From an uncultured Bacteroidia bacterium (GTDB taxonomy: Bacteria; Bacteroidota; Bacteroidia; Bacteroidales; F082), in assembly GCA_902801465.1 (NCBI GenBank), contig CADCIH010000001.1:268007-332006 (forward strand): DNA of 64,000 bases, written 5' to 3'. The position numbers and the translations under genes were made by a program. This document shows, piece by piece, positions 12,829-63,978 of this stretch. The notes beneath the pieces were generated by a model. The model was given only the letters and a program-made list of their open reading frames with translations, was not told the DNA's origin and did not search any database. Numbering within the stretch: the first letter of the stretch is position 1; each line of letters starts with the position of its first letter.

Positions 12829-12856
12829 TTCTCCGTTTTCCGTTTTCCGTTTATCA
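12829..12856. repeat. 7-bp-period array (TTCTCCG/TTTTCCG) between dnaJ and grpE
   Basis: Three units, TTCTCCG, TTTTCCG and TTTTCCG, are followed by a partial unit TTTATCA that contains the grpE stop codon. The array fills almost the entire 32-nt gap between grpE and dnaJ. One C/T transition separates the first two units, as in other arrays of this window. Confidence 0.85.
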
Positions 12857-13432
12857 GTTCCCAACAACGACCCTGGCGAATCTGATGACGGTGCCGTTGA
12901 GTTTGTATCCTTTTTGAATCACGTCGATGACTTTGCCTTTCTTCGACTCGTCGGGGGCGGGCACCATGGTCAGGGCTTCGTGTTCGTCGGTGTTGAACTC
13001 GCAGTCGATGGCCACGATTTCTTCGAGGCCTTTCTTCTGGAGTGTGGATTTCAGTTTGTTATAGATGAGCGTCACGCCTTGGATGTCGGTCTCGTTGCCG
13101 TTTTTCTCCATGTTTTGGAGGGCGCGTTCGAAGTCGTCGAGCACGGGCAGGAGGTCTTTCATCACCGCTGCTGAGGCGGTGGCTGAGAGCTCGAGTTTCT
13201 CTTTGGCGGTACGTTTGCGGTAGTTGTCGAATTCCGAATACAGGCGGAGGTAGGTCTCATTGAGTTCGGCATACTTCGTTTGTGCCTCTTCCAGTGCTTT
13301 GGCATGTGCGCGTCTGCCTTTATGGCGCCTGCTGTTGGGCTCAGCTGTCGGTTCTTGGTTTTGTTCGGCTGTTTGCTGAGGTTGTTCTAATGGTTCATTT
13401 TCCTGATTTTCAGTCTCTTTCTTTTCTTCCAT
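12854..13432 (-). CDS. grpE: Nucleotide exchange factor GrpE
   Basis: A 192-residue cytosolic exchange factor for DnaK. A charged, low-complexity N-terminus rich in Glu, Gln and Asn (1-40) is followed by a long coiled coil (about 45-95, containing [18 protein letters not shown]) and the beta domain ending in [21 protein letters not shown], the conserved GrpE tail. Its stop codon lies in a heptad array just before dnaJ. Confidence 0.95.
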
Positions 13433-13449
13433 GATAAATAATTAATTTA

Positions 13450-14805: not shown

Positions 14806-14808
14806 GGC

Positions 14809-15492
14809 TTATTGTTGCTGTTGTTTGCGCTTCTTGTAGGCGGGGTTGTTGGGGTTGTTCATGTCGGCCTTGAGGTTCGACTGTTTCTTTTTCTTCTTTT
14901 TCTTGCCTTGGCCTTGTTGTCCGGGTTTCATGGAGGGTTCCACGCCGTTGAGTTTGGTCTCTTCGTCGAGAACCAGGCGACCATGTGACATGTTTTTGAG
15001 GTCGGCGATGATTTGTTGGTCACTGACCACGTTGCCGCCCCATTCGGTGTAGTTGCGTTTCATCTGGTTGGCGATGGAGAGGGCGAGGGCTTGGCGGGCT
15101 TCTTCGTCGTCGACGGCTGAGGCCATCTCGACCATCTTGGCCATGTAGTGGCCGTAGTGTCCGTATTCGATATGGTTGTTTTGGTAGCCCACGTGCCTAG
15201 GTCTCTCGGCTCGTGCCTGGGGTTCGGGCATGGGGTAGGGGCTGTCCACGTCGAGTTGGTAGTCGGAGATGATGTAGAGGTGGTCCCAGAGTTTGTGGAG
15301 GTAGTCGTCAGACTGTTTCACTTGGGGGTTCATCTGTGCCATGACGCTGATGATGAACTGTGCGGCTTCGGTGCGTTTCTGTCGGTCTTCGATTTCCATG
15401 AGGTGACGGATCATCTCCTGCATGTTGCGGCCGTATTCCGAGATGATGATTTGGCCGCGTTCGGTATTGTATAGCAATCCTTGTTTGTCCAT
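14809..15492 (-). CDS. DUF4290 family protein
   Basis: A 227-residue cytoplasmic protein of a Bacteroidota-restricted family that usually precedes murA, as here (3 nt apart). I start it at MDKQGLLYNTERGQIIISEYG, where family similarity begins; reading further upstream adds an unlikely hydrophobic stretch with no start codon close to the gene. The core (about 1-180) is helical. The C-terminus (about 185-227) is a basic, low-complexity tail with a run of seven lysines and a final QQQQ, probably disordered or nucleic-acid-binding. Function unknown; the murA link hints at a cell-envelope role. Confidence 0.8.
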   Translation of the reverse strand: MDKQGLLYNTERGQIIISEYGRNMQEMIRHLMEIEDRQKRTEAAQFIISVMAQMNPQVKQSDDYLHKLWDHLYIISDYQLDVDSPYPMPEPQARAERPRHVGYQNNHIEYGHYGHYMAKMVEMASAVDDEEARQALALSIANQMKRNYTEWGGNVVSDQQIIADLKNMSHGRLVLDEETKLNGVEPSMKPGQQGQGKKKKKKKQSNLKADMNNPNNPAYKKRKQQQQ

Positions 15493-15568
15493 AATGATGC
15501 GATTTGAGTGCAAAATTACATTTTTTATAGGAAATAGATATAGTTGTTCGTTATTTATTATTATTTTG

Positions 15569-15576
15569 TATTTTTG
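15569..15576 (+). promoter_or_regulatory. -7 box (TATTTTTG) for the surface-protein gene at 15617
   Basis: TATTTTTG matches TAnnTTTG. A TTG about 22 nt upstream (15544-15546) may be the -33 element. The predicted leader is about 35 nt and A-rich before the ATG. Confidence 0.5.
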
Positions 15577-15616
15577 CAGCTTCAAAAAACTGATTCTATT
15601 TATTCTTAAAAAGACA

Positions 15617-18595
15617 ATGAAAAAGACTAATTTTTTTAAGCAGGTTGCCCTCATCTTACTCGCTGTGATGATGACCAGCGCTACGGCGTGGGCACAAGAA
15701 CAACAAATCCTTCGTATCTACACGACAGATGATTGGAACACATTTGCCGCTAATGTGAGCAGCGGCACTAACAACTACAACGGATGGATTGTGACACTCG
15801 AAAACAACATCACCGTGACGACGACCGTGGGTGATGTCTCTAACACAAATAATCATTTTCGGGGCACCTTTAACGGTCAGGGCAACACCCTGACCTTCAA
15901 TAGTAGTGAGTATCTGGCCCCGTTTGGTTACACCTATAACGCCACCATCGAAAACCTTAAAGTAGAAGGCAATATCTACACCTCCGACATGTATCCTGGT
16001 GGAATTGTTGGCCAACAATGGGGAACTCTCACCTTGCGCAACTGCCGCTGTAGCGTTAACATCCACTGCAGCAGAGCTGGCGAATGTGGTGCTGGGGGCC
16101 TTGTCGGCTATGTTTCGGGTTCGGTCAACACTGTGATTGAAGGTTGTCTGTTTAACGGCAGCTTGTTATCTGTGAATGATGGCGAAAATCTCTCAACCTC
16201 ATGCGGTGGCTTTATAGGTTATTCTATAAGCGGAACATTTAACATCAGCAACTCGTTGCTCGCCCCAACCAACGTCACTATTGGTTATGGCAGTGGCGAT
16301 CGACCCAGTTACATTTTTGCCCGCTCTTTCAACACCCAAGGTAATAGCAGCATCACAAACAGCTACTGGATTTATCCCACGGAGTTTGGTACTTACCAGG
16401 GATTGCGAGCCCACACCATCACGGCTGGCGAGCATATCTCCGTGGAGTTTGCTGGAACTGAAACCGTCTATTCTTCCACGGGCATTCGTAGCTACAGTAA
16501 TGGCGGCATCAGATATGGTGGTGTGCTTTATGCAGGCAATAACTCAGACGCCAACTACGATGTGGTGAGCCTCACTCTGAATAACACCCCTGAAGAAGGT
16601 TACGTCTTCGACCATTACACTGCCAGCGCAGGCACTTTGACTGGCAGCGATAATCCTTACTCCCTCACTATGCCTGCTGAAGATGTGGTGATTAACGGCG
16701 TGTTCATAGCACCTATCAATTACATGAACGCTGACGGCTCCATAGGTTACAAGGCAGCCAACGAATATACCGTCCTTACTGGCGGCGCTGCTACTTCACT
16801 TGAAGCAGGTTGGTATGTGGTGAACAGCGACATCGACTACACGGGCAAAGTTACCCTTAACGGTGATGTGACCATCATCCTTTGCAATGGTTGCACGATG
16901 AATGTTGGCACAGAAGAAAGCCCGATTAGCGGCCAAGGCCTTGACGCTCAAAATCTCACCATCTACGGGCAAACACTTGATGAAAATACAGCTGGAAAAC
17001 TCAGTGTATATTGCAATGATCGATGGGCTTCCGCTTGCAATGCAACAAATTACGTACAGAATAGCGGAAATGTGGTGGTTGTCAATACTAATAACGAGGC
17101 AGGTGGAACTCAAGAAGGTATCGGGGCTAACATCACTATCAACGGTGGCAAGTTATACGCCAGTGCTGATGTTAGGTCTCTTATATCTTCAAACATCAAT
17201 ATTAATGGCGGCAAGGTTACTACTATTGGATCCATATATGCTCTTAATAATAGTACAGTCACTATCAGTTGGACAAATGCAGACGATTATGTCAGTGCCA
17301 CTTATTATAATGGGAATGTTACCCTTGCCAAGAATTTTATATACCAAAACAGTGTTTATGCTCCAGGTATTGTGTACGACCCATCTTCAACATTGGGAGG
17401 TAAGACCCTCCGTCCCTATGGAGTCAACACCCTTTCGGTGAAAGGCTGGGGCAATAGTGCCGAGAGCGACCACTGGGTGTTTATTGCATCGCCTGTGGCA
17501 ACAGACGGCGGAGTGGCTTTCAGCTATGTCGATAACCTCATCAACACCACCACTGCGAATTACGACCTCTATCGCCTCAACAACACCAGTTGGGAGAACT
17601 CGAAGAACACCTCTGGACACTCCGATTTCACCACATTGGTCAACGGACGCGGTTACCTCTACGCCAACAAAGACGATGTCACATTGACCTTCAGCGGAAC
17701 GCTCAACGATGCAACTGAGCAGAGTGTGCAAGTCTACGAAGGATACAATCTGGTGGGTAACCCGTTCCCAACGATGGCATATCTCAACCAATCTTATTAC
17801 GCAATGAATGCTGACGGATCAAACATCGTGGCAACTCCGATGAATATTTCCAATCCGATTATGCCTTGCACGAGTGTTATTGTTGAAGCCAATCCCGGAA
17901 CGGTTACGTTTAGTACCAAACAACCGCAGCAGCAAAGTTCAGGCTCCAACAACGGTTTCTTGCAAGTTGTTCTTGCTGAACAAGTGGCTACCCGTGGCGG
18001 TGAAACTACTACTATGATTGACAATGCAATTGTCAGCTTCAACGAAGGCGATGAACTGGGCAAGTTTTATTTCGGCGAACAAGATGCCAAGATCTATATC
18101 CCGCAAGATGGTAAGGAATATGCCATCGTCCATGGTGGAAACCAAGGCGTGATGCCGCTGAACTTCGAAGCCAATGAGAACGGCGAATACACCTTGACCG
18201 TCTCGGAAACTTTCAACTCTCAACTTTCCACTCTCCACTTAATCGACAATCTCACCGGTGCCGACGTCGACCTCCTGTCCACCCCGAGCTACCAGTTCAC
18301 TGCTAGAAAGACCGACTTCGCCTCGAGGTTCAAACTCGTGTTCCGTACGAACGGCGTCGACAACACCAGTGATAGTGACAACGCTTTCGCCTACTACAGC
18401 GACGGACAGATCTACCTCGTCGGTGATGAGGACACCCTCAACGCCACCATGCAGGTGATCGACATCACCGGTCGTATCGTCGTCCGCAGCGTCGGTGCAA
18501 ACGTCATCTCCACCAACGGTTTGGTTCCTGGCGTTTACACAATCCAAATGGTCCAAAACAATCAGGTTAGAAATCAAAAGATAATAATCAAATAA
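15617..18595 (+). CDS. Large T9SS-sorted surface protein
   Basis: A 992-residue secreted protein. I start at MKKTNFFKQVALILLAVMM, which gives a proper signal peptide cleaved after ATAWA; the -7 box just upstream supports this. The N-terminal half has GLUG-like glycine-rich repeats (about 110-220) and an InlB/bacterial-repeat-like segment (about 313-361) with 'GYVFDHYTASAG' features. From about 608 comes a module shared with the 1424-residue protein at 59670 (motifs GRGYLYANKDDVTLTF, GYNLVGNPFP, LHLIDNLTGADVDLL). The C-terminus has the type A sorting pattern VIDITGRIV...VPGVYTIQMV with a basic end. Probably a cell-surface adhesin; ligand unknown. A 7-bp-period array lies inside it. Confidence 0.8.
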   Translation: MKKTNFFKQVALILLAVMMTSATAWAQEQQILRIYTTDDWNTFAANVSSGTNNYNGWIVTLENNITVTTTVGDVSNTNNHFRGTFNGQGNTLTFNSSEYLAPFGYTYNATIENLKVEGNIYTSDMYPGGIVGQQWGTLTLRNCRCSVNIHCSRAGECGAGGLVGYVSGSVNTVIEGCLFNGSLLSVNDGENLSTSCGGFIGYSISGTFNISNSLLAPTNVTIGYGSGDRPSYIFARSFNTQGNSSITNSYWIYPTEFGTYQGLRAHTITAGEHISVEFAGTETVYSSTGIRSYSNGGIRYGGVLYAGNNSDANYDVVSLTLNNTPEEGYVFDHYTASAGTLTGSDNPYSLTMPAEDVVINGVFIAPINYMNADGSIGYKAANEYTVLTGGAATSLEAGWYVVNSDIDYTGKVTLNGDVTIILCNGCTMNVGTEESPISGQGLDAQNLTIYGQTLDENTAGKLSVYCNDRWASACNATNYVQNSGNVVVVNTNNEAGGTQEGIGANITINGGKLYASADVRSLISSNININGGKVTTIGSIYALNNSTVTISWTNADDYVSATYYNGNVTLAKNFIYQNSVYAPGIVYDPSSTLGGKTLRPYGVNTLSVKGWGNSAESDHWVFIASPVATDGGVAFSYVDNLINTTTANYDLYRLNNTSWENSKNTSGHSDFTTLVNGRGYLYANKDDVTLTFSGTLNDATEQSVQVYEGYNLVGNPFPTMAYLNQSYYAMNADGSNIVATPMNISNPIMPCTSVIVEANPGTVTFSTKQPQQQSSGSNNGFLQVVLAEQVATRGGETTTMIDNAIVSFNEGDELGKFYFGEQDAKIYIPQDGKEYAIVHGGNQGVMPLNFEANENGEYTLTVSETFNSQLSTLHLIDNLTGADVDLLSTPSYQFTARKTDFASRFKLVFRTNGVDNTSDSDNAFAYYSDGQIYLVGDEDTLNATMQVIDITGRIVVRSVGANVISTNGLVPGVYTIQMVQNNQVRNQKIIIK
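18210..18237. repeat. Intragenic 7-bp-period array (CTTTCAA/CTCTCAA/CTTTCCA/CTCTCCA)
   Basis: Four perfect-register heptads sit in the C-terminal module of the surface-protein gene and encode SETFNSQLSTLH. The paralogous module at 59670 has an unrelated sequence and one residue fewer at the same place, so the heptads replaced or were inserted in a variable loop. Units alternate by a C/T transition at position 3. Confidence 0.8.
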
Positions 18596-24133: not shown

Positions 24134-24168
24134 CTTTCCGTTTTCCGTTCTCCGTTCTCCGTTTTTTC
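24134..24168. repeat. 7-bp-period array between sprT-like and cobW-like genes
   Basis: Units are CTTTCCG, TTTTCCG, TTCTCCG, TTCTCCG and TTTTTTC, in exact register. The array lies in the 88-nt divergent intergenic region and directly abuts the TACTTTTG box of the CobW gene, covering its -33 zone. Confidence 0.85.
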
Positions 24169-26428: not shown

Positions 26429-26447
26429 GTTTAGATGTTTTACGGGA

Positions 26448-26484
26448 CAAAAATAAACAAAACGAAGAATATTTTCTATTTTTG
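26448..26484. promoter_or_regulatory. Divergent -7 boxes for the adhesin (minus) and AI-2E transporter (plus)
   Basis: TATTTTTG on the minus strand (26455-26448) lies 19 nt before the ATG at 26428. TATTTTTG on the plus strand (26477-26484) lies 19 nt before the ATG at 26504. The near-identical geometry supports both. Confidence 0.55.
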
Positions 26485-26503
26485 CTTGTTAAAATTGAAA
26501 AAG

Positions 26504-27670
26504 ATGGAAAAGGAACGAAACATTGACAAGTTGGCCGGATACCTTATAAAGATAGGGGGCTTTGCCATCATTGCTGCTCTGTGCTGGTATTTCAAGAACG
26601 TGCTGATATACATCGTCATAGCCTTTGTGGTCTCGCTGATCGGACGTCCCGTCATGAGGTTGCTCAAGAAGTTGCACATCAAGAAGTTCCATCTGCCTGA
26701 TTGGTTCTCGGCCATCCTGACCATCCTCTTGATCCTCGGGATTCTGATCCTCATTGTCACCCAGCTGGTGCCTTTGGTGACGAACATCGTACGCGACGCC
26801 TCCATCTTGAACAGCAAGGCATATCTCGATTCGAATCCTCTGGATGGCGTGAATGACTGGCTTATCAGGGTATTTCCTAGTTTGGGGGCTGATTTCAGTT
26901 TGGTTGATGTTGTCATGGAGAAATTGGCTGAGCTGGTGAGTTTCAACAGCGTGACGGGGTTTGTGGGCTCGGTGGCTTCTGTGGTCTCCAGTGCTTTCGT
27001 GGGACTCTTCGCCGTGGTGTTCATCTCGTTTTTCTTCCTGAAGGATGCTGAGCTGTTTGAACGGATCATCTGCTCTTTGGTTCCCGACAAGATAGAGTAC
27101 ACCATGAATACCACTTTGAGCGACATCAAGCAGCTGCTCTCGCGCTATTTCGGAGGACTTCTTTTGGAGATGTTCGGGGTGGCGTTGATCGATTTCTTGG
27201 GGCTGTGGCTCATTGCGCGACTGGATTTCAGCTACGCCATAGGCATCGCCTTTATTGCCGGTATCTTGAATGTGATTCCTTACGTTGGACCTTTGATTGG
27301 TGAGGCCATCGGTGTGATCCTCGGCGTGATACTCAAGGTCGGCATCGGGGCTGGACTGGCTGTGAATGTCTGGGTCTTTGCCTTGATCATCCTTGCCATC
27401 ATGCTGACGGCTCAATTAATAGATAATTTCATCTACCAGCCGGTGATTTATTCCACCAGCATCAAGGCGCATCCTTTGGAGATTTTCATTGTGTTGCTCA
27501 TGGCGGGACATATTGGAGGAACCGTAGGTATGTTGGTCGCCATCCCGGCTTATACCGTGGTGCGTGTCATCGCCATCCGGTTCTTCTACCGCTTCAAGCC
27601 CATCCAGCGACTGAGTCCAGACCTGAGCGAGGAGGACAAGATCCTGATTAATGATAAAATTAAGAATTAA
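26504..27670 (+). CDS. AI-2E family transporter (PerM/YhhQ-type membrane protein)
   Basis: A 388-residue inner-membrane protein with about eight hydrophobic segments and the family's central soluble region (about 105-190). I start at MEKERNIDKLAGYLI because the -7 box lies 19 nt before it; longer versions would begin upstream of the transcript start. The conserved C-terminal half includes GILNVIPYVGPLIGEAIG and NFIYQPVIYSTSIKAHPLEIF. Some members export AI-2, others move Na+ or have unknown substrates. The stop codon and last codons (KIKN) are made by a heptad-repeat array. Confidence 0.9.
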   Translation: MEKERNIDKLAGYLIKIGGFAIIAALCWYFKNVLIYIVIAFVVSLIGRPVMRLLKKLHIKKFHLPDWFSAILTILLILGILILIVTQLVPLVTNIVRDASILNSKAYLDSNPLDGVNDWLIRVFPSLGADFSLVDVVMEKLAELVSFNSVTGFVGSVASVVSSAFVGLFAVVFISFFFLKDAELFERIICSLVPDKIEYTMNTTLSDIKQLLSRYFGGLLLEMFGVALIDFLGLWLIARLDFSYAIGIAFIAGILNVIPYVGPLIGEAIGVILGVILKVGIGAGLAVNVWVFALIILAIMLTAQLIDNFIYQPVIYSTSIKAHPLEIFIVLLMAGHIGGTVGMLVAIPAYTVVRVIAIRFFYRFKPIQRLSPDLSEEDKILINDKIKN

Positions 27671-27700
27671 GAATTAGGAATTAAGAATTAAGAGATAAAT
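27659..27700. repeat. 7-bp-period array (ATTAAGA) shared by two convergent gene ends
   Basis: Units ATTAAGA, ATTAAGA, ATTAGGA, ATTAAGA, ATTAAGA and GATAAAT. The array carries the TAA stop of the AI-2E transporter on the plus strand and the TAA stop of the thioesterase on the minus strand. With a 7-bp period, TAA appears in every frame of both strands within three units. Confidence 0.9.
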
Positions 27701-28446
27701 AAGATCTTGCAGCGGCAGACTTCGGTGTTTTCTTGGGTGTTCTGGTCGGTTTTCACTAGTCGGATGCAGAAGGTCTGCTCGCCGGTTTGTTCCCTGTAAA
27801 AATGCAGTTTGTCGCCTTGATGGGTCTCTGCCACGTAGGCGATGTCGAACCGTTTGATCTGATGTTCGCGGTACCAGGAGATATCCCACAGGTCGATGAC
27901 GTGTTCGATGTATTTTATGGAATTAACATGTCCATTAATGTCGATATCATGATAATAGGTGTCGATGGTCCTGACGAGTTCGGTGTTGGGGTTCATCTTC
28001 ACGCGGTCGCCTTTTTCGATGGGGCAGGGTTTGTCCTTCACAATCCATTGGTCGATGGCTCCGTTGTCGATGGCATAGATGTCGGTAGGTTGTCGTGTCT
28101 CCGTGTCGATCATGGCCCACACGGAGCGGCCGTAGCCATACACATTTCCGTCGAGGTCGCTGACTTGGAAGTTACGTTGGGTAAAGAATTTCATGGCGTC
28201 TTCCACCCATGTCTCGACGGTAAAGTGCTCGTATTGAGCTGGCATAGAGGTCATCTCGATGGCGAGTCTGGACAGCACCCACGAGCGGTGGATGTTCATC
28301 AGGTACTTCATGCCGAAGCCCCTGTCGGTGGAGTGGAAGTCGGCCGCGTTGAGCATTTGGTTTCCCAGATGTCCCAGGCATAAGTGCCCCGAGAAGTCGC
28401 AGTGGAATGGCTCCGCAATAAACTCATATTTCCCAACTCTATCCAT
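27688..28446 (-). CDS. Acyl-ACP thioesterase
   Basis: A 252-residue cytosolic double hot-dog enzyme that releases fatty acids from acyl carrier protein. The N-terminal hot-dog has the family pattern LNAADFHSTDRGFGMKYL and WVLSRLAIEM. The C-terminal half has the catalytic-type segment HDIDINGHVNSIKYIEHVID (about 165-184; Asn and His as in FatA/FatB). Length is normal for bacterial members. Its start codon directly follows a TATCTTT array, so its 5' leader is repeat sequence, and its stop lies in an ATTAAGA array. It lies downstream of hydE on the same strand, probably co-transcribed. Confidence 0.85.
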   Translation of the reverse strand: MDRVGKYEFIAEPFHCDFSGHLCLGHLGNQMLNAADFHSTDRGFGMKYLMNIHRSWVLSRLAIEMTSMPAQYEHFTVETWVEDAMKFFTQRNFQVSDLDGNVYGYGRSVWAMIDTETRQPTDIYAIDNGAIDQWIVKDKPCPIEKGDRVKMNPNTELVRTIDTYYHDIDINGHVNSIKYIEHVIDLWDISWYREHQIKRFDIAYVAETHQGDKLHFYREQTGEQTFCIRLVKTDQNTQENTEVCRCKILFIS

Positions 28447-28502
28447 TATCTTTTATCTTTTAACTTTTATCTTTTATCTTTTATCTCTTATCTCTTATCT
28501 TC
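28447..28502. repeat. 7-bp-period array (TATCTTT/TATCTCT), eight units
   Basis: Eight registered units: TATCTTT twice, TAACTTT, TATCTTT twice, TATCTCT twice, TATCTTC. It begins at the base next to the thioesterase start codon and extends through the hydE stop codon into its coding end, so the hydE C-terminus KIRDKR is encoded by repeat units. Confidence 0.9.
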
Positions 28503-29569: not shown

Positions 29570-29586
29570 TCTTCTGAATTTTGCGG

Positions 29587-29622
29587 CAAAGTTAATGATT
29601 TCCAAAAAAAATCGTACCTTTG
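29587..29622. promoter_or_regulatory. Divergent -7 boxes for hydE (minus) and etfB (plus)
   Basis: TAACTTTG on the minus strand (29594-29587) is 17 nt before the chosen hydE ATG. TACCTTTG on the plus strand (29615-29622) is 32 nt before the etfB ATG. Both fit TAnnTTTG; -33 elements are unclear. Confidence 0.5.
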
Positions 29623-29654
29623 CCGCCGAATTTGAAAACGAGATTTTTTATTTT

Positions 29655-30557
29655 ATGACAAAAGCATTGAAAATCGTGGTGCTTGCCAAGCAAGTGCCCG
29701 ATACGAGAAATGTGGGTAAGGACGCCATGACGCCCGAGGGCACCGTGAACCGCGCCGCCCTGCCCGCCATCTTCAATCCCGAAGATTTGAATGCCCTTGA
29801 ACAGGCACTGCGCCTCAAGGAACAAAACCCCGGCAGCACCGTCGGCGTGCTCACCATGGGCCCGCCCCGCGCCGGCGAGATCATCCGCCAAGGCCTCTTC
29901 CGTGGCGCCGACACAGGATGGCTGCTTACCGACAGACTCTTTGCTGGAGCTGATACCTTAGCTACTTCATACGCACTGGCCACCGCCATCAAGAAGATTG
30001 GTGACGTGGACATCGTCATCGGCGGCCGTCAGGCCATCGACGGTGATACCGCCCAGGTGGGCCCCCAAGTGGCACAGAAACTGGGACTCAACCAAGTGAC
30101 CTACGCTGAGGAAATACTTAAGATTGAGGAACGGAAAACGGAAAACGGAGAACGGAAAACTATAGCTACCGTCAGAAGACATATTGATGGGGGTGTGGAG
30201 ACTGTGGAAGTGCCGCTGCCTTGCGTGATTACCGTCAATGGCAGTGCGGCTCCTTGCCGTCCCTGCAATGCCAAGCTGGTGATGAAATACAAGTATGCCT
30301 CTTGCCCGCTGGAGCGTCAGCCCGAGGATCCTCGCGCCGACCTCTATTCCGCACGTCCCTATTTGACGTTGAACCAGTGGAGCGTAGCCGACGTGGATGG
30401 CGACCCCGACCAGTGTGGCCTCTCAGGCAGTCCCACTAAGGTGAAAACCGTGCAGAACATCGTCTTCCAGGCCAAGGAGAGCAAGACCCTCACTGCCAGC
30501 GATGCCGATGTGGAAGGATTAATCAAAGAATTGTTGGACGAAAAGATTATCGGATAA
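29655..30557 (+). CDS. etfB: Electron transfer flavoprotein beta subunit
   Basis: A 300-residue FixA/EtfB protein that carries electrons from acyl-CoA dehydrogenase. It starts MTKALKIVVLAKQVPDTRNVG, 32 nt after a -7 box. Family motifs are NPEDLNALEQALRLKE (about 41-56), VDIVIGGRQAIDGDTAQVGPQVA (about 118-140) and the C-terminal recognition region. Residues 159-169 (ERKTENGERKT) are coded by a 7-bp-period array inserted between KIE and ATVRRHIDGG, a site that is a short loop in relatives. It overlaps etfA by one base (TAATG). Confidence 0.93.
   Translation: MTKALKIVVLAKQVPDTRNVGKDAMTPEGTVNRAALPAIFNPEDLNALEQALRLKEQNPGSTVGVLTMGPPRAGEIIRQGLFRGADTGWLLTDRLFAGADTLATSYALATAIKKIGDVDIVIGGRQAIDGDTAQVGPQVAQKLGLNQVTYAEEILKIEERKTENGERKTIATVRRHIDGGVETVEVPLPCVITVNGSAAPCRPCNAKLVMKYKYASCPLERQPEDPRADLYSARPYLTLNQWSVADVDGDPDQCGLSGSPTKVKTVQNIVFQAKESKTLTASDADVEGLIKELLDEKIIG
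30132..30159. repeat. Intragenic 7-bp-period array in etfB
   Basis: Units CGGAAAA, CGGAAAA, CGGAGAA and CGGAAAA in exact register, preceded by a partial TGAGGAA. The reading frame stays open and gives a 7-residue periodic peptide (ENG/ERKT). The reverse-complement units equal those in the cobW, dnaJ and C69 arrays. Confidence 0.9.
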
Positions 30558-33319: not shown

Positions 33320-35049
33320 CTTTCCCGGCGATTGATAACTTCTTTAAGGAGGTATCGGTCGCCGGTTGCTTTATGGACGGCGTCGATGAACTGCTGGTCG
33401 TAGCCAGGTGTTTCGTGGCCCCAGCGGGTGAAATTGCCGTTCTCGTCGACACGGCGGACGATCTGGTCGTTGTAGCGCACGATGAGGTGTTTGGCCAGTT
33501 GGTCCCAGCGTTGCATCATCTTTTCGGCGTATGCGATGCTCTTGCGGTTCAAGAAGCTCTGTCTGTCGGCAGGTGTCATATCCTTGATAGCTTCCACCAC
33601 CTTGTCTTGGTCGGTGAAATAGTAGTCTTCCAGTTCTTTTTGAGCCTTTCGGAGGTCGCCGATCATCATGGAGTAGCGGGGATAGACCATGTTGGCCACC
33701 CAGTTGTTCATCCAGAAGGCCGATTTGTCGCTGAACTCGGCGCGGGGGTTGTTTTCGGGCCGGAAGCAGTCGGGCACCTGTGTGATGCAGCAGTAGAGCG
33801 GCACGTAGGCCACCATGTTGGCGTCGTCGCAGTTGAACCAGGTGACGCCGCCCACGTCGTTAGGCAGCCATGAGCGCATCTGGCAGGTCATGGTGAACCC
33901 GCTCTGTTGTGTGGCGATGGGCCGTTCGCGGAAATAGGCGAGGCTGTCGCTGTCCTTGAAATGCATCGGCAGGGGGCGAATAGGCATGCCCCAGGGGCCA
34001 GCGGTCATGTCGGAGGTCATGTCCAGAGGGGTGCCTTCGAAATGGTCGCGCATGTCCTGCTGGAGGTCGCGCAGCGAGAGCGGCTTGTCGGGTTTGATCC
34101 ACAGCGGAAGATGGTCGCACAGCTCGAAGTCGCCGTTGATGTAAGGCAGGTATCTGTCCATCTCCTCATGGCTGTAATGATGTCTGAAGAAACTCCACAC
34201 GCGGGCGTCGGCGTAGCGCACGTTCTCGAAGTCGATGGGGCAGTAGGCCTCGCGGAACGAGAAGTCTTCGTCCTTGCCGTTAAAGAATCCTTTCTCACGA
34301 GCAAATGAAATGACATCGTAAGCATACACGCAATCCACCCTTGGATCATTAATCTTCTTCAAATTCTTACTACTAATACTCTTCCCATCTAAAGAAAACA
34401 GTTTTCCGTTTTCCGTTCTCCGTTTTCCGTTCTCCACAGGAAACTCCCTGATCCTACTAAGGTTGGCATGGGCGCAGATGCAGTCGTCGGGGACTCGCAG
34501 TGCCACCCAGACGGCGCCTTGGCGGTCCGGGCCTTTGCCGATGATCTCCATGATCCAGGCCTCTTCGGGGTCGCAGATGGTGATGGTCTCGCCGCTGCTG
34601 TTATAGCCGTATTCTTCCACCAGCTCCGCCATGCATTTGATGGCTTCGCGGGCTGTCGAAGACCGTTGAAGGGCCAGTCGCATCAGGCTGAAATAGTCGA
34701 GTAGCCCGTCGGGGTTCACCAGCTCCAGGCGTCCGTCGAAGGTGGTCTCCACGATGGTCACCTGTTTCTCGTTCATCAGGCCTACTACGTTATAGGTGTA
34801 TTCCACCTGTTTCACATACCGTCCCTCATGGGAAGGACCCCAGCCGTGGATGGCGATCAGTTCGCCCGGCTCATGGCGTCCTGAGGGGCTGTACGACAAC
34901 GATCCGGAGAAGCCGAAGCCGTCACAGTTATAGGTGCACATCACGCTTCCGTCGGTGGAAGCTTTCTTGCCAACGATCAAGTTGGTGCAGGCCGATGCGG
35001 ATTCCCAACCCAGCATGGCGAGCAAAATGGTGATAAGTATTTTCTTCAT
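33316..35049 (-). CDS. C69-family (U34) dipeptidase, secreted
   Basis: A 577-residue Ntn-hydrolase. The signal peptide ends ESASA, which exposes Cys21 of CTNLIVGKKASTDGSV as the new N-terminal nucleophile, the hallmark of this family. Other family elements are GYNSSGETITICDPEEAWIMEI (about 148-169) and the C-terminal EDYYFTDQDKV and SFLNRKSIAYAEKMM segments. It cleaves dipeptides in the periplasm or outside. Residues about 206-218 (ENGKRRTENGKLF) are coded by a heptad array and stand in a region that is usually shorter. Its -7 box is 7 nt from the ATG. Confidence 0.88.
   Translation of the reverse strand: MKKILITILLAMLGWESASACTNLIVGKKASTDGSVMCTYNCDGFGFSGSLSYSPSGRHEPGELIAIHGWGPSHEGRYVKQVEYTYNVVGLMNEKQVTIVETTFDGRLELVNPDGLLDYFSLMRLALQRSSTAREAIKCMAELVEEYGYNSSGETITICDPEEAWIMEIIGKGPDRQGAVWVALRVPDDCICAHANLSRIREFPVENGKRRTENGKLFSLDGKSISSKNLKKINDPRVDCVYAYDVISFAREKGFFNGKDEDFSFREAYCPIDFENVRYADARVWSFFRHHYSHEEMDRYLPYINGDFELCDHLPLWIKPDKPLSLRDLQQDMRDHFEGTPLDMTSDMTAGPWGMPIRPLPMHFKDSDSLAYFRERPIATQQSGFTMTCQMRSWLPNDVGGVTWFNCDDANMVAYVPLYCCITQVPDCFRPENNPRAEFSDKSAFWMNNWVANMVYPRYSMMIGDLRKAQKELEDYYFTDQDKVVEAIKDMTPADRQSFLNRKSIAYAEKMMQRWDQLAKHLIVRYNDQIVRRVDENGNFTRWGHETPGYDQQFIDAVHKATGDRYLLKEVINRRER
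34402..34436. repeat. Intragenic 7-bp-period array in the C69 dipeptidase gene
   Basis: Units TTTTCCG, TTTTCCG, TTCTCCG, TTTTCCG and TTCTCCA on the plus strand. On the coding (minus) strand they read CGGAAAA/CGGAGAA and give a 7-residue periodic peptide (ENGKRRT ENGKLF) without any stop codon. Confidence 0.9.
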
Positions 35050-35065: not shown

Positions 35066-37384
<2,319 letters not shown>

Positions 37385-45915: not shown

Positions 45916-45931
45916 AATACTATCTCTCTAA

Positions 45932-45973
45932 ATTCTTAATTCTTAATTCCTAATTCCTAATTCCTAATTCCCA
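45932..45973. repeat. 7-bp-period array (ATTCTTA/ATTCCTA), six units
   Basis: Units ATTCTTA twice, ATTCCTA three times, ATTCCCA once, in exact register, with a C/T transition between neighbours. It spans the gap between the subtilase start and the radical SAM gene, and holds the TAG stop and last codons (GIRN) of the latter. Confidence 0.9.
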
Positions 45974-46806: not shown

Positions 46807-46814
46807 CAAAGATA
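46807..46814 (-). promoter_or_regulatory. -7 box (TATCTTTG) of the radical SAM gene
   Basis: TATCTTTG on the minus strand is 7 nt before the chosen ATG at 46799. The mRNA would be leaderless or nearly so. Confidence 0.5.
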
Positions 46815-46823
46815 GGAATTTTT

Positions 46824-46865: not shown

Positions 46866-46890
46866 TGGCCGCTCGCCGCGGGGGCCCTTA

Positions 46891-54482: not shown

Positions 54483-55561
54483 AAAGAATAACCATATTAC
54501 TGTGTAGTTTATTGCTTGTCTTTGCCGCATGTGGACCGAAAGACCCCATCCCGCAAGGCGAAGTGACCATCGGCAAGGGCGTCTTCGTCATCAACGAAGG
54601 CACCTTCACCTACGCCAACTCGTCGTTGACGTTTTACGACCCGGTGATGGACACCGTGGCCAACAACCTGTTCTACCGTGTCAACGGCTCCCCCGTTGGC
54701 GATGTAGGCCAGAGTCTCTGCCTCCTCGTCGGCAAGCTCTACATCGTGGTCAACAACAGCAACTACATCTATAAGGTCGACGCCAGCACCATCGTGTGCG
54801 ACACCAACCAGCCTTACATGGTCACCGGTTTCATCTCACCCCGTTACATGCTTCCCCTGGCTCCCAACAAGGCCTACGTCAGCGACTTGGCAAGCACCAA
54901 GCTGTGGATCGTCAATCCCCAGGACATGACGTTGGCCGGCAGTGTGGAGATGGGCAAGTCGACCGAGACCATGGCGCAGGTAGGGAATGAGGTCTATGTG
55001 ACCAACTGGTCGCGTTACTACATCGCCGGGATGGAGAACAACACCGTTCAGGTGGTCGATGCCAACAACGACGTGAAGGTGGCCGATATCGAGGTCGGCA
55101 TGGAACCCAACGGCATCGTCGTCGACAAGGACGGCATGGTGTGGGTGCTGTGTGAGGGCGACTCGTACGACTTCGAGAACGAGGTGCCCAGCACCTTGTG
55201 GAAGATCAATCCTACCACCAAGGAGGCAGCCATGGTGGTAAGCTTCGAGCTCAAGGCCTTGAACTTGGCCATCGACCCCACAGGCAGTTATCTGTATTGC
55301 ATCTATGGCGGCGATTGGACCAACGGTGGCGATGTGCGTCGTATCGACATCACCCATCCGACCGAGTTCGACGACTTTGTCATCCCCTCTGAGGGCAGGA
55401 TGTTCTATAAGATTGCCGTGAATCCCAACAACGGCGACCTCTATCTCTCCGACGCCAAGAACTATACAACAAACGGCACCGTGTATCGTTACACCTCCGA
55501 CGGGGTGCTGATGAGCTCGTTTGATGCTGGAATCTGCCCGGGAAATATGACCTTTAATTAA
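54479..55561 (+). CDS. YncE/DUF5074-type beta-propeller lipoprotein, BtuG-like
   Basis: A 360-residue lipoprotein with lipobox LVFAAC (Cys18). The body shows about seven propeller blades (for example KLYIVVNNSNYIYKVDAST, KAYVSDLASTKLWIVNP, EVYVTNWSRYYIAG, GIVVDKDGMVWVLCEG). BtuG of Bacteroides is a surface lipoprotein of this fold that binds B12 and works with BtuB; the riboswitch here supports a similar role. No btuB is in the window. Its TAA stop is within an ATTAAGA heptad array. Confidence 0.72.
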   Translation: MKRITILLCSLLLVFAACGPKDPIPQGEVTIGKGVFVINEGTFTYANSSLTFYDPVMDTVANNLFYRVNGSPVGDVGQSLCLLVGKLYIVVNNSNYIYKVDASTIVCDTNQPYMVTGFISPRYMLPLAPNKAYVSDLASTKLWIVNPQDMTLAGSVEMGKSTETMAQVGNEVYVTNWSRYYIAGMENNTVQVVDANNDVKVADIEVGMEPNGIVVDKDGMVWVLCEGDSYDFENEVPSTLWKINPTTKEAAMVVSFELKALNLAIDPTGSYLYCIYGGDWTNGGDVRRIDITHPTEFDDFVIPSEGRMFYKIAVNPNNGDLYLSDAKNYTTNGTVYRYTSDGVLMSSFDAGICPGNMTFN

Positions 55562-55598
55562 GAATTAAGAATTAAGAATTAAGAATTCTGAATTATGA
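55557..55598. repeat. 7-bp-period array (ATTAAGA) ending in a start codon
   Basis: Units ATTAAGA four times, then ATTCTGA and ATTATGA. The first unit holds the stop of the propeller gene and the last holds the ATG of the Cys-rich mini-gene. The same layout recurs at 63944-63978. Confidence 0.9.
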
Positions 55599-55753
55599 AA
55601 AAGGTTTGTCCCAAGTGCGGCAAGGAGTTCGAGTGTGTCCACTCGGTTGACTGCTGGTGTGTCAAGGTGAATCTCACCGATGAGACCCGGCGCAAGTTGA
55701 AAGTTTACAACGATTGTCTATGCAAGGAATGTCTCGAAGCGTTGTCGCGATAA
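55595..55753 (+). CDS. Cysteine-rich CWC-family mini-protein
   Basis: A 52-residue protein starting MKKVCPKCGKEFECVH with eight cysteines: CPxC (5, 8), C14, CWC (20, 22), CxCxxC (41, 43, 46). The pattern matches the small Cys-rich CWC family, probably a zinc-binding knuckle. There is no signal peptide. It lies inside the B12 operon between the propeller lipoprotein and the BtuF-like gene and overlaps the latter by 34 nt in another frame. Its ATG is the end of a heptad array. Function unknown. Confidence 0.8.
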   Translation: MKKVCPKCGKEFECVHSVDCWCVKVNLTDETRRKLKVYNDCLCKECLEALSR

Positions 55754-59669: not shown

Positions 59670-62600
59670 ATGAAAAGATCATTACGAATGAAAATCGTAC
59701 TCTTGCTATTCGTCCTTTTAGCAGGGAGCGGAAGAGCGTGGGCCACAGCCTACAAATCCTTCACGGGAGGTGAAGAACAAGCCTCTACCACAATTAGTAC
59801 TTCAAATGTTTCATCTGGCTCGGTTGGAGTTATTTCGTGGACGGGAACAGGTTGTACCTATTCTAGTAGTCGTGTAAACATTGCGGCAAATGGAAGTATT
59901 ACATTCACAGCAGGGAGTGGATATAATATCACAAAGATCGTTATGTATACAAGTACTTCTAGTACTTATTATGGGACTTGGAGTATGAATGTATCTGGAA
60001 ATATATCTGATCCAGGTGCAACGATGACATTTGATGGCTTTAGTGAAACTTCTGTAACCGTAACAACTTCTTCAGCTTATAGATGTACCAGTGCTGGTTA
60101 CATGCAGATTCATTATGAGAGCACAGGAGGCGGTGGCTCAACCGTTAACCCTCCAACTTTCAATCCTGTAAGCGGAACAAAGGTGGTTAGTGGAACTGTT
60201 GTGCATTTAAACGCAGCAGATGGTGCTACCATTCGTTATATTTCTGGAACAGGAACCTTTGATGCTCCAACAACTACTACAGGAACGGTATACAACGATG
60301 CTGAGGGTGTTATTGTAGATGCAGATCATAATACTATCAAAGCCATTGCCATTGTAAATAGCGAAGTCAGCGATCCGGCAACAGCCACTTATACCGTGCT
60401 TAACCCGCTCACTACGATGGACCAGATTATGACTGCCGCAACAACAGCAGGTAACACGGCAACTGATGCTGCAATCAATTTTGGGGATTGGATTGTTTCT
60501 GGTGTAACTGTCGCTGATCAAACTAGTAACGTAAAAAGGGCTTTTGTCACCGATGGCACTAAAGGTTTCGTTATTTATAATAGCGGCGGTGGTTTGACAT
60601 TTGAAAAAGGCCAAGTGCTGAGTGGCACAAAGATCTGCCAGGTGCGACTTCTTAACGGTGCACCATGTGTTATGGGCCTTAATGCTTCCGACTTTACTAT
60701 TACTCAAACCGGTCAATCGCCTATTGTAACAAACACGACAATCAGTGCACTCACTGAAGTAAATACGGGTTCTGTTGTTGATCTTGGCGTCTTAACTTGG
60801 AAAGGGTCTTATTTTGAGGATAATAACGAAAACAAACTTACTTATTACAATACGATGTATACCCAATCATTCACTACGAATCAGGCGTACAATGTAAAAG
60901 GTGTGTTTGTTTATTACAGTGGCAATACAAATCCCAAAGAAATTGCTCCTCGCGATGAAAATGACATTACTGCAACTAGTACTTTTACTGTAACATACAA
61001 CGGCAACGGTGCCGATGGCGGAACAACTCCTGTCGACAATAATCAATATGCAAGCGGTGAAACTGTCACCGTGCTTGACAATACCTTTACGAAAATAGGA
61101 CATGAGTTTTACTATTGGAGCGATATGCAAGATGGAAATGCCCAAGGAGCAAATCTCTATGATCCGACTGACAACGCGGCCAATACTTTTAGTATTACGG
61201 AGAACACTATTCTTTATGCCCAATGGGGGGTAAAAAGTTACAGCTATACATTGAACGTTACTGGCGATGATACACAAGCCGAAGCAGCCTTGAATGTAGG
61301 TGGTCAGGAGGTTCAAAGTGGTGCCATTGAGTATGGTGCAGAGGTTACCGTTGTTGTTGCTACAAACCCAGGCTACCTATACAGCATTGCCGTGAAGGAT
61401 GCCAACAACCAAGATGTAACTGTCGTAAATGATAAGTTTACTATGCCTGCCAGTGCAGTGACAGTTACTGTTACTACAGTATTGATTCAAAACTACACTG
61501 TTTCATTTAACCCCGGTACAGGCACATGTGAGACCGCTTCAATCAATGAAAGCGTGGGCACTGTTATTCAGCTTCCAACCGCGGTGCCATCAGCAACCTG
61601 TGTAGCAGAACACTGGGTATTTGCTGGCTGGGCCACTGAAAACGTAAGTGAAACCACCACGGCTCCAGCGTTACTCACAGGTGATTATACTATTACGAGC
61701 AACATTACCCTTTATGCTGTATATGCTGTAAGCTCTGATGTAGTGTTTAATTTTGAAGCAATCGCAAGTGCCAACGATTGGTCTGACGGTACAGCCTATA
61801 CAGAAGTTGTTGTCAGTCCCGTGACCATAACAGCTAATGGTGGAGGAAATAACGGAAAGTACTATGTTAGCGATAAAACATGGCGCATGTATAATGGAGG
61901 AAGTGTATCTATCGAATGTGCAAACGGGAATGTGATAAGTGTTGCTTCCGATCCTTCAATTGACTTCGTTGTTGCCAATGGTGTCGCCTCTTTTGCTTTC
62001 ACAGCGACCACAAAGTTTAAATCGATTACTGTCGCTATTTTAGACGGTTCAGCTACTACCTACAACAGCAATCCGAATTGCATGGGTACTGTTGAAAATC
62101 CTGAATTCTCACCAGTTGGAGGAACATATGATGCAACACAAAGCGTGACCATTACTTGTGCAACTGTCGGAGCAACCATTCAATATAAAACCAATGAAAA
62201 TGGTGATTGGACAAATTATACTGATGCTATTTCAGTTAGCACAACAACCACCATTTGGGCCAAGGCTATAAAAGAGGGTATGTATGATAGTGAAGTGGTT
62301 TCGGCTACTTATACCATCGTTGAGCCATTTTCTCCTTTTACTTGCACAAAGGCTACAAACATTGTAAGCGGCAAGCATTATATCATCACCAATGGCGATG
62401 AGCTAGCCATGGGATACCAAAAGGATAACAACCGTGATGCTGTTGCCATCACCCTTGAGGGCAATGTTGCCACAGTTGGCAGTCAGGATGTTTATGAGTT
62501 CGTCATCATCGGGCCCGATGTGGATGGTTTATACACCATTTACGATGTTGCAAATTCGAAGTATTTGTATGCTGCTAGCAGCAGTGCTAATCAACTGAAG

Positions 62601-63944
62601 ATCCAAGACAACATTGATGACAATTCTCGTTGGAACATCACCTTTGATGCAACCGATGGATTTGCTAATATTATAGCAACAAAAAGCTCCAACCGCAATA
62701 AGATGCAGTATAACGGTACGAGTAATAATAGCCTTTTCTCATGCTATAAAAGTGATAATACAAGTTACTCCAATGTTTACCTCTATGCAAAGGATAACGA
62801 GGCCACCATTTCCATCAAAAGAAACGATATTGTCAGTTACGGGACAAGCGAGAGAGGTGGCTATTATCTGATTGCTTCTCCTGTAGGCCAGGTGACTCCT
62901 GCTGCAGGAAACGGATTCTTGACCAACAACTACGACCTCTACGCCTTTGATCAATCCGCCTCCAATGCCGAGGTTTGGCGCAACTATGAGGCAACCAACT
63001 TCAACCTCGTTTCAGGTCGTGGCTATCTCTACGCCAATAGCGGCAACACCACCGAACTCACCTTCGAAGGTATGCCTTATGTTGGCAACGGACAGGTGAT
63101 CCTTTCATACGATGGAGATTCGGATTGGGCCGGCTGGAACCTCATCGGCAACCCCTATGCCACCAACGCAACGATTCCTGGTAACCAATCATATTACACC
63201 TTGAATACAAATCGTGACGAACTCATCGCTGGTGAATCAACCACCATTGGCGCCATGGAAGGCATCTTTGTGAAGGCTACTGCTGCCGGTGAATCCGTTA
63301 CCTTTACTCCTACGAGTGGCAACAAGGGTGATACCGACCTAAACTCCAGAGTGGTGCTCAACCTGAACGGCAAACACGGCGTCATCGACCGCGCCATCGT
63401 CCGCTTCAGCGAAGGCGGCGTTCTGCCTAAGTTCATGATGAACCCCGAGAACACCCGCATCTATATCCGTCAAGACAATGAGGATTTCGCCGTGCTGAAC
63501 AGCAACGGTCAAGGCGAAATGCCCGTCAACTTCAAGGCTGCTGAGAACGGCACCTACACCATCAGCGTGGAGGCCGAGAACCTCGACGTGCAGTACCTGC
63601 ACCTGATCGATAACATGACCGGTGCCAACATCGACCTGCTCGCCACCCCGAGCTACACCTTCGAAGCCCGTAAGAGCGACATCGCCAGCCGCTTCCGCCT
63701 CGTGTTCGACGCCAACACCGGCAACAACGAGACCAACGACAACTTCGCCTTCATCAACAACGGCGAACTCATCGTCAACGGCAACGGCACCGTCCAAGTA
63801 ATCGACATCTTGGGACGCCAAATGTTCAGCCATGAGGTCAATTCCGCATTCCGCATTCAGAATTCCTCATTCGCCCCCGGCGTGTATGTGCTGAGACTGG
63901 TCAACGGCAACGATGTCAAGACACAGAAGATCGTTATTAAATAA
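59670..63944 (+). CDS. Giant T9SS-sorted multidomain surface protein
   Basis: A 1424-residue secreted protein; signal peptide 1-26 ending GRAWA. Recognised parts: two Listeria-Bacteroides repeat domains (about 440-520 with TVTYNGNGADGGTTP, and about 608-690 with FNPGTGTCE), a chitobiase-type C-terminal-like domain (about 812-882, FSPVGGTYDATQSVTIT), a ricin/beta-trefoil-like region (about 890-1045, VSGKHYIITNGDELAMG) and, from about 1055, the module shared with the protein at 15617. A type A sorting domain ends it (VIDILGRQMF...APGVYVLRLV, basic end). Probably an adhesin or glycan-binding protein. The sequence up to about 62.8 kb is more AT-rich than the last 1.1 kb, suggesting a mosaic. A heptad array lies near its 3' end. 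Confidence 0.85.
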   Translation: MKRSLRMKIVLLLFVLLAGSGRAWATAYKSFTGGEEQASTTISTSNVSSGSVGVISWTGTGCTYSSSRVNIAANGSITFTAGSGYNITKIVMYTSTSSTYYGTWSMNVSGNISDPGATMTFDGFSETSVTVTTSSAYRCTSAGYMQIHYESTGGGGSTVNPPTFNPVSGTKVVSGTVVHLNAADGATIRYISGTGTFDAPTTTTGTVYNDAEGVIVDADHNTIKAIAIVNSEVSDPATATYTVLNPLTTMDQIMTAATTAGNTATDAAINFGDWIVSGVTVADQTSNVKRAFVTDGTKGFVIYNSGGGLTFEKGQVLSGTKICQVRLLNGAPCVMGLNASDFTITQTGQSPIVTNTTISALTEVNTGSVVDLGVLTWKGSYFEDNNENKLTYYNTMYTQSFTTNQAYNVKGVFVYYSGNTNPKEIAPRDENDITATSTFTVTYNGNGADGGTTPVDNNQYASGETVTVLDNTFTKIGHEFYYWSDMQDGNAQGANLYDPTDNAANTFSITENTILYAQWGVKSYSYTLNVTGDDTQAEAALNVGGQEVQSGAIEYGAEVTVVVATNPGYLYSIAVKDANNQDVTVVNDKFTMPASAVTVTVTTVLIQNYTVSFNPGTGTCETASINESVGTVIQLPTAVPSATCVAEHWVFAGWATENVSETTTAPALLTGDYTITSNITLYAVYAVSSDVVFNFEAIASANDWSDGTAYTEVVVSPVTITANGGGNNGKYYVSDKTWRMYNGGSVSIECANGNVISVASDPSIDFVVANGVASFAFTATTKFKSITVAILDGSATTYNSNPNCMGTVENPEFSPVGGTYDATQSVTITCATVGATIQYKTNENGDWTNYTDAISVSTTTTIWAKAIKEGMYDSEVVSATYTIVEPFSPFTCTKATNIVSGKHYIITNGDELAMGYQKDNNRDAVAITLEGNVATVGSQDVYEFVIIGPDVDGLYTIYDVANSKYLYAASSSANQLKIQDNIDDNSRWNITFDATDGFANIIATKSSNRNKMQYNGTSNNSLFSCYKSDNTSYSNVYLYAKDNEATISIKRNDIVSYGTSERGGYYLIASPVGQVTPAAGNGFLTNNYDLYAFDQSASNAEVWRNYEATNFNLVSGRGYLYANSGNTTELTFEGMPYVGNGQVILSYDGDSDWAGWNLIGNPYATNATIPGNQSYYTLNTNRDELIAGESTTIGAMEGIFVKATAAGESVTFTPTSGNKGDTDLNSRVVLNLNGKHGVIDRAIVRFSEGGVLPKFMMNPENTRIYIRQDNEDFAVLNSNGQGEMPVNFKAAENGTYTISVEAENLDVQYLHLIDNMTGANIDLLATPSYTFEARKSDIASRFRLVFDANTGNNETNDNFAFINNGELIVNGNGTVQVIDILGRQMFSHEVNSAFRIQNSSFAPGVYVLRLVNGNDVKTQKIVIK
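63841..63875. repeat. Intragenic 7-bp-period array (ATTCCGC/ATTCAGA/ATTCCTC/ATTCGCC)
   Basis: Five registered units with the constant part ATTC encode NSAFRIQNSSFA in the sorting domain, just before PGVYVLRLV. The paralogous protein at 15617 has unrelated sequence two residues shorter at this point. Confidence 0.8.
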
Positions 63945-63978
63945 TTTAGAATTAATAATTAAGAATTTATAGATATGA
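63944..63978. repeat. 7-bp-period array ending in a start codon
   Basis: Units ATTTAGA, ATTAATA, ATTAAGA, ATTTATA and GATATGA. The first base belongs to the stop codon of the giant protein gene, and the last unit holds the ATG of the next gene, as at 55557-55598. Confidence 0.85.

Follow-up and report, generated by a model that had tools for sequence, protein, structure and literature searches.

Heptanucleotide repeat arrays at gene ends in a Bacteroidales F082 genome and in other Bacteroidota

Introduction

Why should one stretch of a bacterial chromosome carry tandem repeats of many different sequences, nearly all of them with a unit of seven bases? The question was raised by a window of 64,000 nucleotides (the whole stretch of DNA analysed here; positions 268,007 to 332,006 of contig 1, CADCIH010000001.1, GenBank assembly GCA_902801465.1), which is part of the 2.46-Mb genome of an uncultured member of the Bacteroidales lineage F082, a genus of rumen bacteria. 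Rumen Bacteroidales MAGs were the nearest records in a protein search, one of them being 'bacterium F082', which presumably corresponds to that GTDB genus. A preliminary description of the window had named twelve sites with a 7-bp period and had argued for a common generating process rather than copies of one element. Such heptad arrays, typically of four or five units, are present in many Bacteroidota and are dense in this and some other F082 species. With a probability of roughly 0.47, that is, somewhat below even odds, we read them as dispersed, concertedly evolving repeats that are kept at gene ends, made by slippage together with copying between loci, sorted by selection, and serving as terminators where they are paired between convergent genes.

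Results

The genome was sampled with the window and 40 further stretches of 20 kb, altogether 864 kb or about 35% of its length. In this sample 164 arrays of period 7 were found, approximately one per 5.3 kb, against 0 to 9 arrays for each of the other periods between 2 and 20 except the harmonic 14; leaving aside the harmonics 14 and 21, the next commonest period was 12, with 9 arrays. Four units (66 of 164) and five units (46 of 164) were the most frequent array sizes. When the window was scored more strictly, at a threshold of 12, it contained 8 period-7 runs compared with a mean of 0.05 in 20 dinucleotide shuffles, and the other periods tested (4-15) gave only one run of period 12, one of period 15 and two of the harmonic 14. 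The density is thus far above chance, as had been supposed. Period-7 sequence could be detected at all twelve named sites, clearly above the threshold at ten of them and weakly at two (35857 and 63944). Since arrays occur at orthologous sites in separately assembled genomes, assembly error is very unlikely as their origin.

Period 7 was also compared with periods 5-9 in nine other sets of stretches, four from F082 and five from other Bacteroidota; it was enriched in the window's own genome and in all nine sets, and was always the commonest period, carried there by many other units. Most of the stretches from outside F082 come from genomes that had AATTAAG matches, in part from the matching places themselves, so that their array density is biased upward. 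The lead of period 7 was narrow in genome G009 (25 arrays against 18 of period 8) and small among 80 named EtfB loci, mostly from Prevotellaceae (514 kb; 19, 10 and 7 arrays for periods 7, 8 and 10, respectively). AATTAAG arrays were found in 42 of 395 Bacteroidota genomes, a count for which the backwards-pattern control is invalid. The 8-bp arrays of G009 form a second class, with the units CTTGTAGT, AAGTGATG and GGTGACTT (L248 5296-5330 and 6966-7040, L249 9214-9280, L102 65-127). Scattered 8-bp arrays were also seen in G003, G507, G008, Prevotellaceae and further stretches, and some stretches, such as L064 and L078, carried solely 8-bp arrays.

The position of the arrays was determined relative to genes predicted with a simple codon-usage caller; these calls are uncurated, their starts being approximate and their stops exact once the reading frame is chosen. 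A stop codon was overlapped, or lay at most 40 bp away, in 97 of the 164 arrays, compared with a mean of 8.5 and a maximum of 16 in 200 trials of random placement. Eleven of the 97 lay at two stops. Among the 86 arrays at one stop only, the purine strand was the sense strand in 76 and the pyrimidine strand in 10 (p=1e-13), as against 24:17 within genes (p=0.35; Fisher test versus stop sites, p=3e-4). The supply of stop codons by the repeats themselves is insufficient as a cause of this strand bias, since units without stops on both strands are biased in the same way (30:4). General purine richness after stops was rejected as well: in gaps of at least 60 bp the sequence following array-free stops is just 51-52% purine, compared with 70-71% for array-bearing ones, thus the purine bias belongs to the arrays. 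The commonest start of a stop-associated purine array was at offset -2 (19 of 87 purine-sense rows), which puts the final two stop-codon bases in register with the repeat. Where codirectional genes are 100 bp or more apart, the stop was the closer gene end for 19 of the 26 arrays (14 of the 17 with the purine strand and 5 of the 9 with the pyrimidine strand in sense) and the start for the other 7.

The nine other sets together gave a purine to pyrimidine ratio of 69:18 at stops, the part from outside F082 being 34:7. The values of the single sets were 18:3 (G008), 5:1 (G004), 8:4 (G009) and 4:3 (other F082 stretches) within F082, and 10:1 (G081), 3:0 (G312), 9:0 (G161), 1:2 (G109) and 11:4 (a mixed set) in other Bacteroidota.

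In the own genome, inverted pairs of arrays less than 60 bp apart have one polarity: 26 close pairs were purine-then-pyrimidine and none was in the reverse order, besides one pyrimidine-pyrimidine pair. Of the 26, 17 were intergenic, 12 of them between convergent genes and 5 between codirectional ones; the other 9 lay in coding sequence. These inverted pairs are about 60-100 bp long and built of heptads, their loops and units vary, and all 26 have a predicted RNA folding energy between -25 and -59 kcal/mol. Of the 69 convergent gaps that measure 15 bp or more, 13 held at least two arrays; in 9 of those gaps the arrays overlapped both stops or lay at most 9 bp from them. The order of units in the two arms is mirrored: the score was 20.35, compared with 15.98 +/- 1.02 for swapped partners, and none of 300 swaps scored as high. 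The paired arrays between convergent genes probably act as two-way terminators.

In order to compare unit sequences, 94 arrays (464 kb) were written as their pyrimidine strand and brought into one phase. Their 357 units belong to a small set: CCGTTTT (82), CCGTTCT (40), TAATTCT (27), TATCTTT (27), AAATTCT (25), TAATTCC (22), TATCTCT (18), TAACTTT (16), GCATTCC (16) and CCACTTT (11), with 40 rarer units besides these ten. The unit classes first reported for the window (CCGTTTT/CCGTTCT, TAATTCT/TAATTCC, TATCTTT/TATCTCT, CAACTTT and GCATTCC) proved correct. CCGTTTT could give 21 variants by a single base change, of which only 7 were seen, CCGTTCT accounting for 62 of the 92 variant occurrences, and CCGTTTT and CCGTTCT stood together in 32 of the 75 arrays of the CCGTTTT class. 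Because the variants are few and both forms so often share an array, they must be common to the loci and have not arisen anew at each of them. It had also been stated that neighbouring units often differ by one transition. A one-base difference was indeed found in 222 of 556 adjacent pairs; however, 247 pairs were identical, and transversions (188) were nearly as frequent as transitions (219) among all the differences between adjacent units.

Coding sequence contained 41 of the 164 arrays. None of these has an internal in-frame stop, two reach the gene's own stop, and the stop-bearing units AATTAAG, AATTTAG and AAAAGAT are missing from all of them. Read in frame, the arrays lengthen ordinary enzymes by peptides, for example KTENGKR or SPFSVFR, and their hosts include EtfB, peptidase C69, GH97, peptidase U32 and an MBOAT protein. 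The peptidase U32 gene of the own genome carries two heptad palindromes (L025 12732-12826 and 12995-13056) that encode TENGK.../FSV..SPFSV peptides; both purine-pyrimidine pairs are present in the G008 orthologue, one of them with equal length in the two species.

Comparison with other F082 genomes, in which the window's own genome is labelled G000, showed that orthologous arrays can keep their place, strand and period, and sometimes their length, while the unit changes. EtfB was matched in 91 of 99 genomes of the genus and its region was compared in 20 relatives. The array at 30130 has a counterpart in one of them (G010), which is of the same length with the unit GGAAAGT in place of GGAAAAC, and none in the other 19. 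At a second place in EtfB an insertion is common to 6 of the 20 relatives, five of equal length and one (G485) 24 bp longer; among the five, the units are GGAATGC in G010 and G473 and GAGAGGT in G020, and the sequence is decayed in G444 and G487. The array at 24135, upstream of the CobW-like gene, was present in all five relatives compared with its strand kept, three other units and once the identical unit being found there. At 28446 four of six relatives had an array, one had none and one had unrelated sequence. Arrays were found at 27658 in 2 of 4 relatives, and in G010 by protein match, and they were present at 34401 and at 35857 in 2 of 5 relatives each. In G487 (L077) the site orthologous to 28446 holds GTCATTGCGAGGAGGAACGACGAAGCAATCC in place of the heptad array, a sequence which appears to resemble a widespread dispersed repeat.

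Of 48 arrays in G008, 26 could be placed in G000 by both flanks (sorted by eye); 14 of them have a G000 array at that place, one with doubtful orthology, and 12 have none. The unit changes include AGGAGTT versus AGGAATT, an AAAACGG array versus a GATAAAA array, and GAGCTGA versus GATAAAA, the last in register and with the same start. Among 1297 ortholog pairs, arrays stood at both stops in 18 pairs compared with 4.8 expected, and these 18 represent just about eight distinct places.

The unit repertoire differs between F082 species. Exact three-unit matches were searched on both strands of the 99 F082 genomes, the window's own included, and the counts are of overlapping matches, not of arrays. 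GGARAAC was found in 9 of the 99 genomes (159 matches in G008, 127 in G000, 44 in G020), AATTARG in 20 (62 in G000, 47 in G438), AGGAGTK in 25 (62 in G487, 37 in G008, 0 in G000), ARAGGTG in 13 (200 in G010, 0 in G000 and in G008) and RAGATAA in 19 (71 in G487, 67 in G000, 0 in G010). The backwards-pattern control was fair, with 0 or near 0 matches, for GGARAAC and RAGATAA; for AATTAAG/AATTARG and AGGAGTK it is not independent, the reversed pattern being the same array shifted, and it was a real unit itself in one G009 search and, as GTGGAAA, in G468 in the ARAGGTG search. For most of the 99 genomes array density was sampled only through a single stretch or through unit patterns. At G010:C71:12283-12439 an array of the GGARAAC class reaches an unusual length, with some 22 units in which two variants are regularly mixed. 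Two contigs of G020, C19 (L101) and C33 (L061/L093), were considered as two strains, a reading that was rejected; they are 99.99% identical over 13.3 kb and are probably assembly redundancy.

The twelve sites of the window are given in Table 1.

Table 1. Heptad sites of the window, with the strand of each gene in brackets
Position	Strand	Array	Gene context
12829..12854	-	CCGTTTT class	fills 32-bp gap; purine strand sense, begins 1 bp past stop of gene 12854-13432(-)
18208..18240	-	CAACTTT/CCACTCT	within coding sequence 15422-18595(+); pyrimidine strand in sense
24134..24166	-	CCGTTTT/CCGTTCT	divergent genes either side; ~39 bp upstream of CobW-like gene 24203-25411(+)
27658..27693	+	AATTAAG/AATTAGG	fills 17-bp convergent gap, overlaps the stops of both neighbours; AI-2E transporter 26435-27670(+), acyl-ACP thioesterase 27688-28446(-)
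28446..28501	-	TATCTTT/TATCTCT	overlaps stop of radical SAM gene 28481-29605(-), purine strand in sense; extends to ATG of thioesterase gene
30130..30160	+	AAAACGG	within EtfB gene 29646-30557(+); 27-bp in-frame insertion
34401..34435	-	CCGTTTT/CCGTTCT	within peptidase C69 gene 33316-35049(-); purine strand in sense
35857..35890	.	short inverted pair, purine arm then pyrimidine arm: AACGGAAAACGG / GTTCTCCGTTCTCCGTT	within GH97 gene 35108-37384(+); weak, 2.4 copies and inverted partner
45927..45971	-	TAATTCT/TAATTCC	overlaps stop of gene 45957-46988(-); purine strand in sense
55556..55599	+	AATTAAG	overlaps stop of DUF5074 gene 54479-55561(+); purine strand in sense
63841..63872	-	GCATTCC	3' part of coding sequence 59670-63944(+); pyrimidine strand in sense
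63940..63975	+	degenerate, AATTAAG-like	begins at stop codon of 59670-63944(+); weak site

Within the CobW-like gene, irregular short repeats at 24933-25031 encode a His/Asp/Glu-rich linker of the protein, which is possibly metal-binding.

Discussion

The idea of a common process stands in so far as period 7 is the commonest in all sets and units change at orthologous sites with place, strand and period kept. Its second half, "rather than copies of one element", was too strong, most arrays belonging to a few dispersed unit families with common standing variants; therefore copying or homogenisation between loci must contribute. In the reading that we prefer, slippage or unequal exchange by seven bases would grow and homogenise the arrays locally, and gene conversion, template switching or another copying step would move sequence between loci and so give each species its own repertoire. 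Selection would remove most insertions, except directly at stop codons and between convergent genes. At a stop codon a purine-rich stretch on the outgoing mRNA may be tolerated or useful; between convergent genes the purine-loop-pyrimidine pair would fold into a long hairpin with a U/C-rich distal arm and would probably work as a bidirectional terminator.

Several observations weigh against this explanation. The strand bias is missing from two small samples (G109 with 1:2 and the mixed F082 stretches with 4:3), and among the close pairs of the nine other sets 5 were pyrimidine-purine beside 13 purine-pyrimidine and same-strand pairs, G312 having 3 in the reverse order and none in the usual one. 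Strong pairs inside coding genes (9 of 26) are unexpected for terminators, and a lone purine array cannot form a hairpin. For 5' ends the rule is weak at best, the arrays associated with starts being 10 pyrimidine-sense and 7 purine-sense. GAGCTGA, which occupies the place of GATAAAA in G008, is uncommon in the sample of that genome, and this favours local change over exchange between loci.

Local change is the essence of the view, rather unlikely in our opinion, that the arrays are passive microsatellites: the polymerase slips by seven, arrays start independently, each from a seed at its own site, and selection clears the coding regions. Slippage by seven bases is an explanation attributed to Mrazek 2007 in the passages of PMC4692102 and PMC4679880 that cite it. 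The lead of period 7 in every set agrees with it, and so do orthologous units that change in register from the same start (C4a:44741 versus L233:16905), as local homogenisation predicts. Local seeds, however, predict unrelated units, and instead a few units dominate the genome and differ by species; nor does passive slippage predict the strand bias at stop codons. This bias, with arrays beginning at the stop codon and the purine strand mostly sense, would follow if a reverse transcriptase or transferase carrying a template added purine-sense heptads at the ends of genes or mRNAs in the manner of telomerase, with the template of the species setting the unit. Such an enzyme would also account for arrays that fall chiefly into discrete classes, with a period of 7 and, in some genomes, a second one of 8, and for species-specific repertoires. 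We consider it improbable, since a search limited to Y1 transposases gave no candidate gene, and since several units coexist in a genome and both orientations are found in mid-gene. A still bolder version is a long shot: a template-driven activity of the Bacteroidota that writes 7-bp, and in some species 8-bp, purine-sense repeats from the stop codon, with a fast-changing species template and rewriting in place. If it were true, the heptamers of Xanthomonas and Nostoc would be products of a like activity and not quadruplex elements.

Binding of the arrays by one dedicated protein would agree with their retention at 24135 (5 of 5 relatives) and 28446 (4 of 6), but units so variable between and within species hardly suit a single binding protein, and the arrays favour stop codons over starts. 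Eleven proteins encoded by host or neighbouring genes were scanned and proved to be mostly ordinary enzymes and transporters, and altogether this possibility appears highly doubtful. In phase-variable contingency repeats the number of units varies among the cells of a strain and switches a surface gene; here one assembly per species was available, and most of the 11 scanned proteins have the look of housekeeping enzymes or transporters. Mobilisation of REP-like (repetitive extragenic palindromic) elements by a RAYT/Y1 transposase has in its favour that the hairpins at gene ends resemble REPs and that a separate hairpin repeat ending in GGTAG, GCACCCCATCGGGGTGCCACATCGGTAG, adjoins several arrays. 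The loops and units of the pairs vary, however, and the transposase was not supported as the generator: a PF01797 (Y1) copy is present in 70 of the 99 genomes, and as far as sampled the copy number does not track array density, with 1 copy in the array-rich G000 and 8 in G472, where the stretch of 20 kb was free of arrays. This origin is thus very improbable. In the own genome the repeat GCACCCCATCGGGGTGCCACATCGGTAG was seen at L027 4269-4620, L028 12468-12560 and L015 2720-2790, and in tandem on contig 4 near 44.3 kb. Least credible of all are G-quadruplex elements of the kind proposed for the heptamers of Xanthomonas and Nostoc. The same unit length and usual number, the similar place and strand and the inverted pairs speak for them, but GGG occurs on the purine strand in 2 of the 164 arrays only; therefore quadruplexes were rejected for these units and cannot be the general reason for the layout here.

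The resemblance to those heptamers is nevertheless close. Rehm 2015 (PMC4692102) describes heptameric GGGAATC repeats in Xanthomonas and GGGGA(T/C)T in Nostoc, proposed to form G-quadruplexes, as dispersed short arrays of about four units, with the G-rich strand sense at or overlapping stop codons and with convergent pairs; the same source gives a coding share of 7-11% in Xanthomonas and about a third in Nostoc. The unit length, the mode of four units (66 of 164 here, with 46 of five), the strand at stops (76:10) and the inverted pairs (26 versus 0, and 13 versus 5 in the other sets) are alike. Close upstream of starts, that study places the G-rich strand antisense, and here 10 arrays lie in that sense and 7 do not. 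As far as that source describes its repeats, the present ones differ from them in lacking quadruplex-capable G-tracts, in their coding share (41 of 164), in having several unit families per genome, replacement of units at orthologous sites and species repertoires, and in belonging to the Bacteroidota. Rehm 2015 also reports that Xanthomonas transcripts start or stop more often at quadruplex-capable repeats than at control repeats, which would fit, without proving it, a role of the F082 arrays at transcript ends. The preliminary description had overlooked this parallel, together with the rule of stop codon and strand, the purine-then-pyrimidine hairpins and the in-frame coding insertions.

Dispersed 7-bp tandem arrays are also known as the STRR heptamers of cyanobacteria. 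Among the Bacteroidales is the genus Paludibacter. For this bacterial group, the literature found on heptad repeats was limited to five Bacteroidetes, Paludibacter with two TAACTGA sets among them, in the study by MacGregor 2015 (PMC4679880) of TAACTGA direct repeats, which occur in Beggiatoaceae and some Cyanobacteria as well. There the unit is single and fixed and lies mostly just upstream of start codons, unlike the arrays described here (19 of 26 in the wider codirectional gaps closer to the stop, 7 to the start). TAACTGA is absent from the units of the 94 arrays and from the main units of the 164.

REP palindromes are tied to RAYT transposases. In the 99 F082 genomes searched no link to a Y1 transposase was found as far as their array density was sampled, in contrast to these tagged palindromes, which PMC3733652 describes as short and extragenic or at gene ends. 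The palindromic elements of Rickettsia (PMC10969869) lie in frame in conserved metabolic genes, as do the heptad palindromes in the peptidase U32 and MBOAT genes here; they are, however, some 150 bp long and belong to named families that have a conserved peptide, whereas the pairs here span about 60-100 bp and consist of heptads. In the length and number of their units, and in their place, strand and pairing, the arrays thus resemble what is already described of Xanthomonas and Nostoc. As far as the literature searches go, it is new that the units are so varied, that they are replaced at orthologous sites, that each species has a repertoire of its own and that heptad palindromes lie in frame.

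Much the same layout, in another phylum and without the ability to form quadruplexes, suggests that its cause is another one, namely the strand polarity of gene ends combined with a seven-base step. Because array-rich and array-poor species exist within one genus, and because units change at known orthologous sites, the origin, spread and retention of heptads are directly testable in F082.

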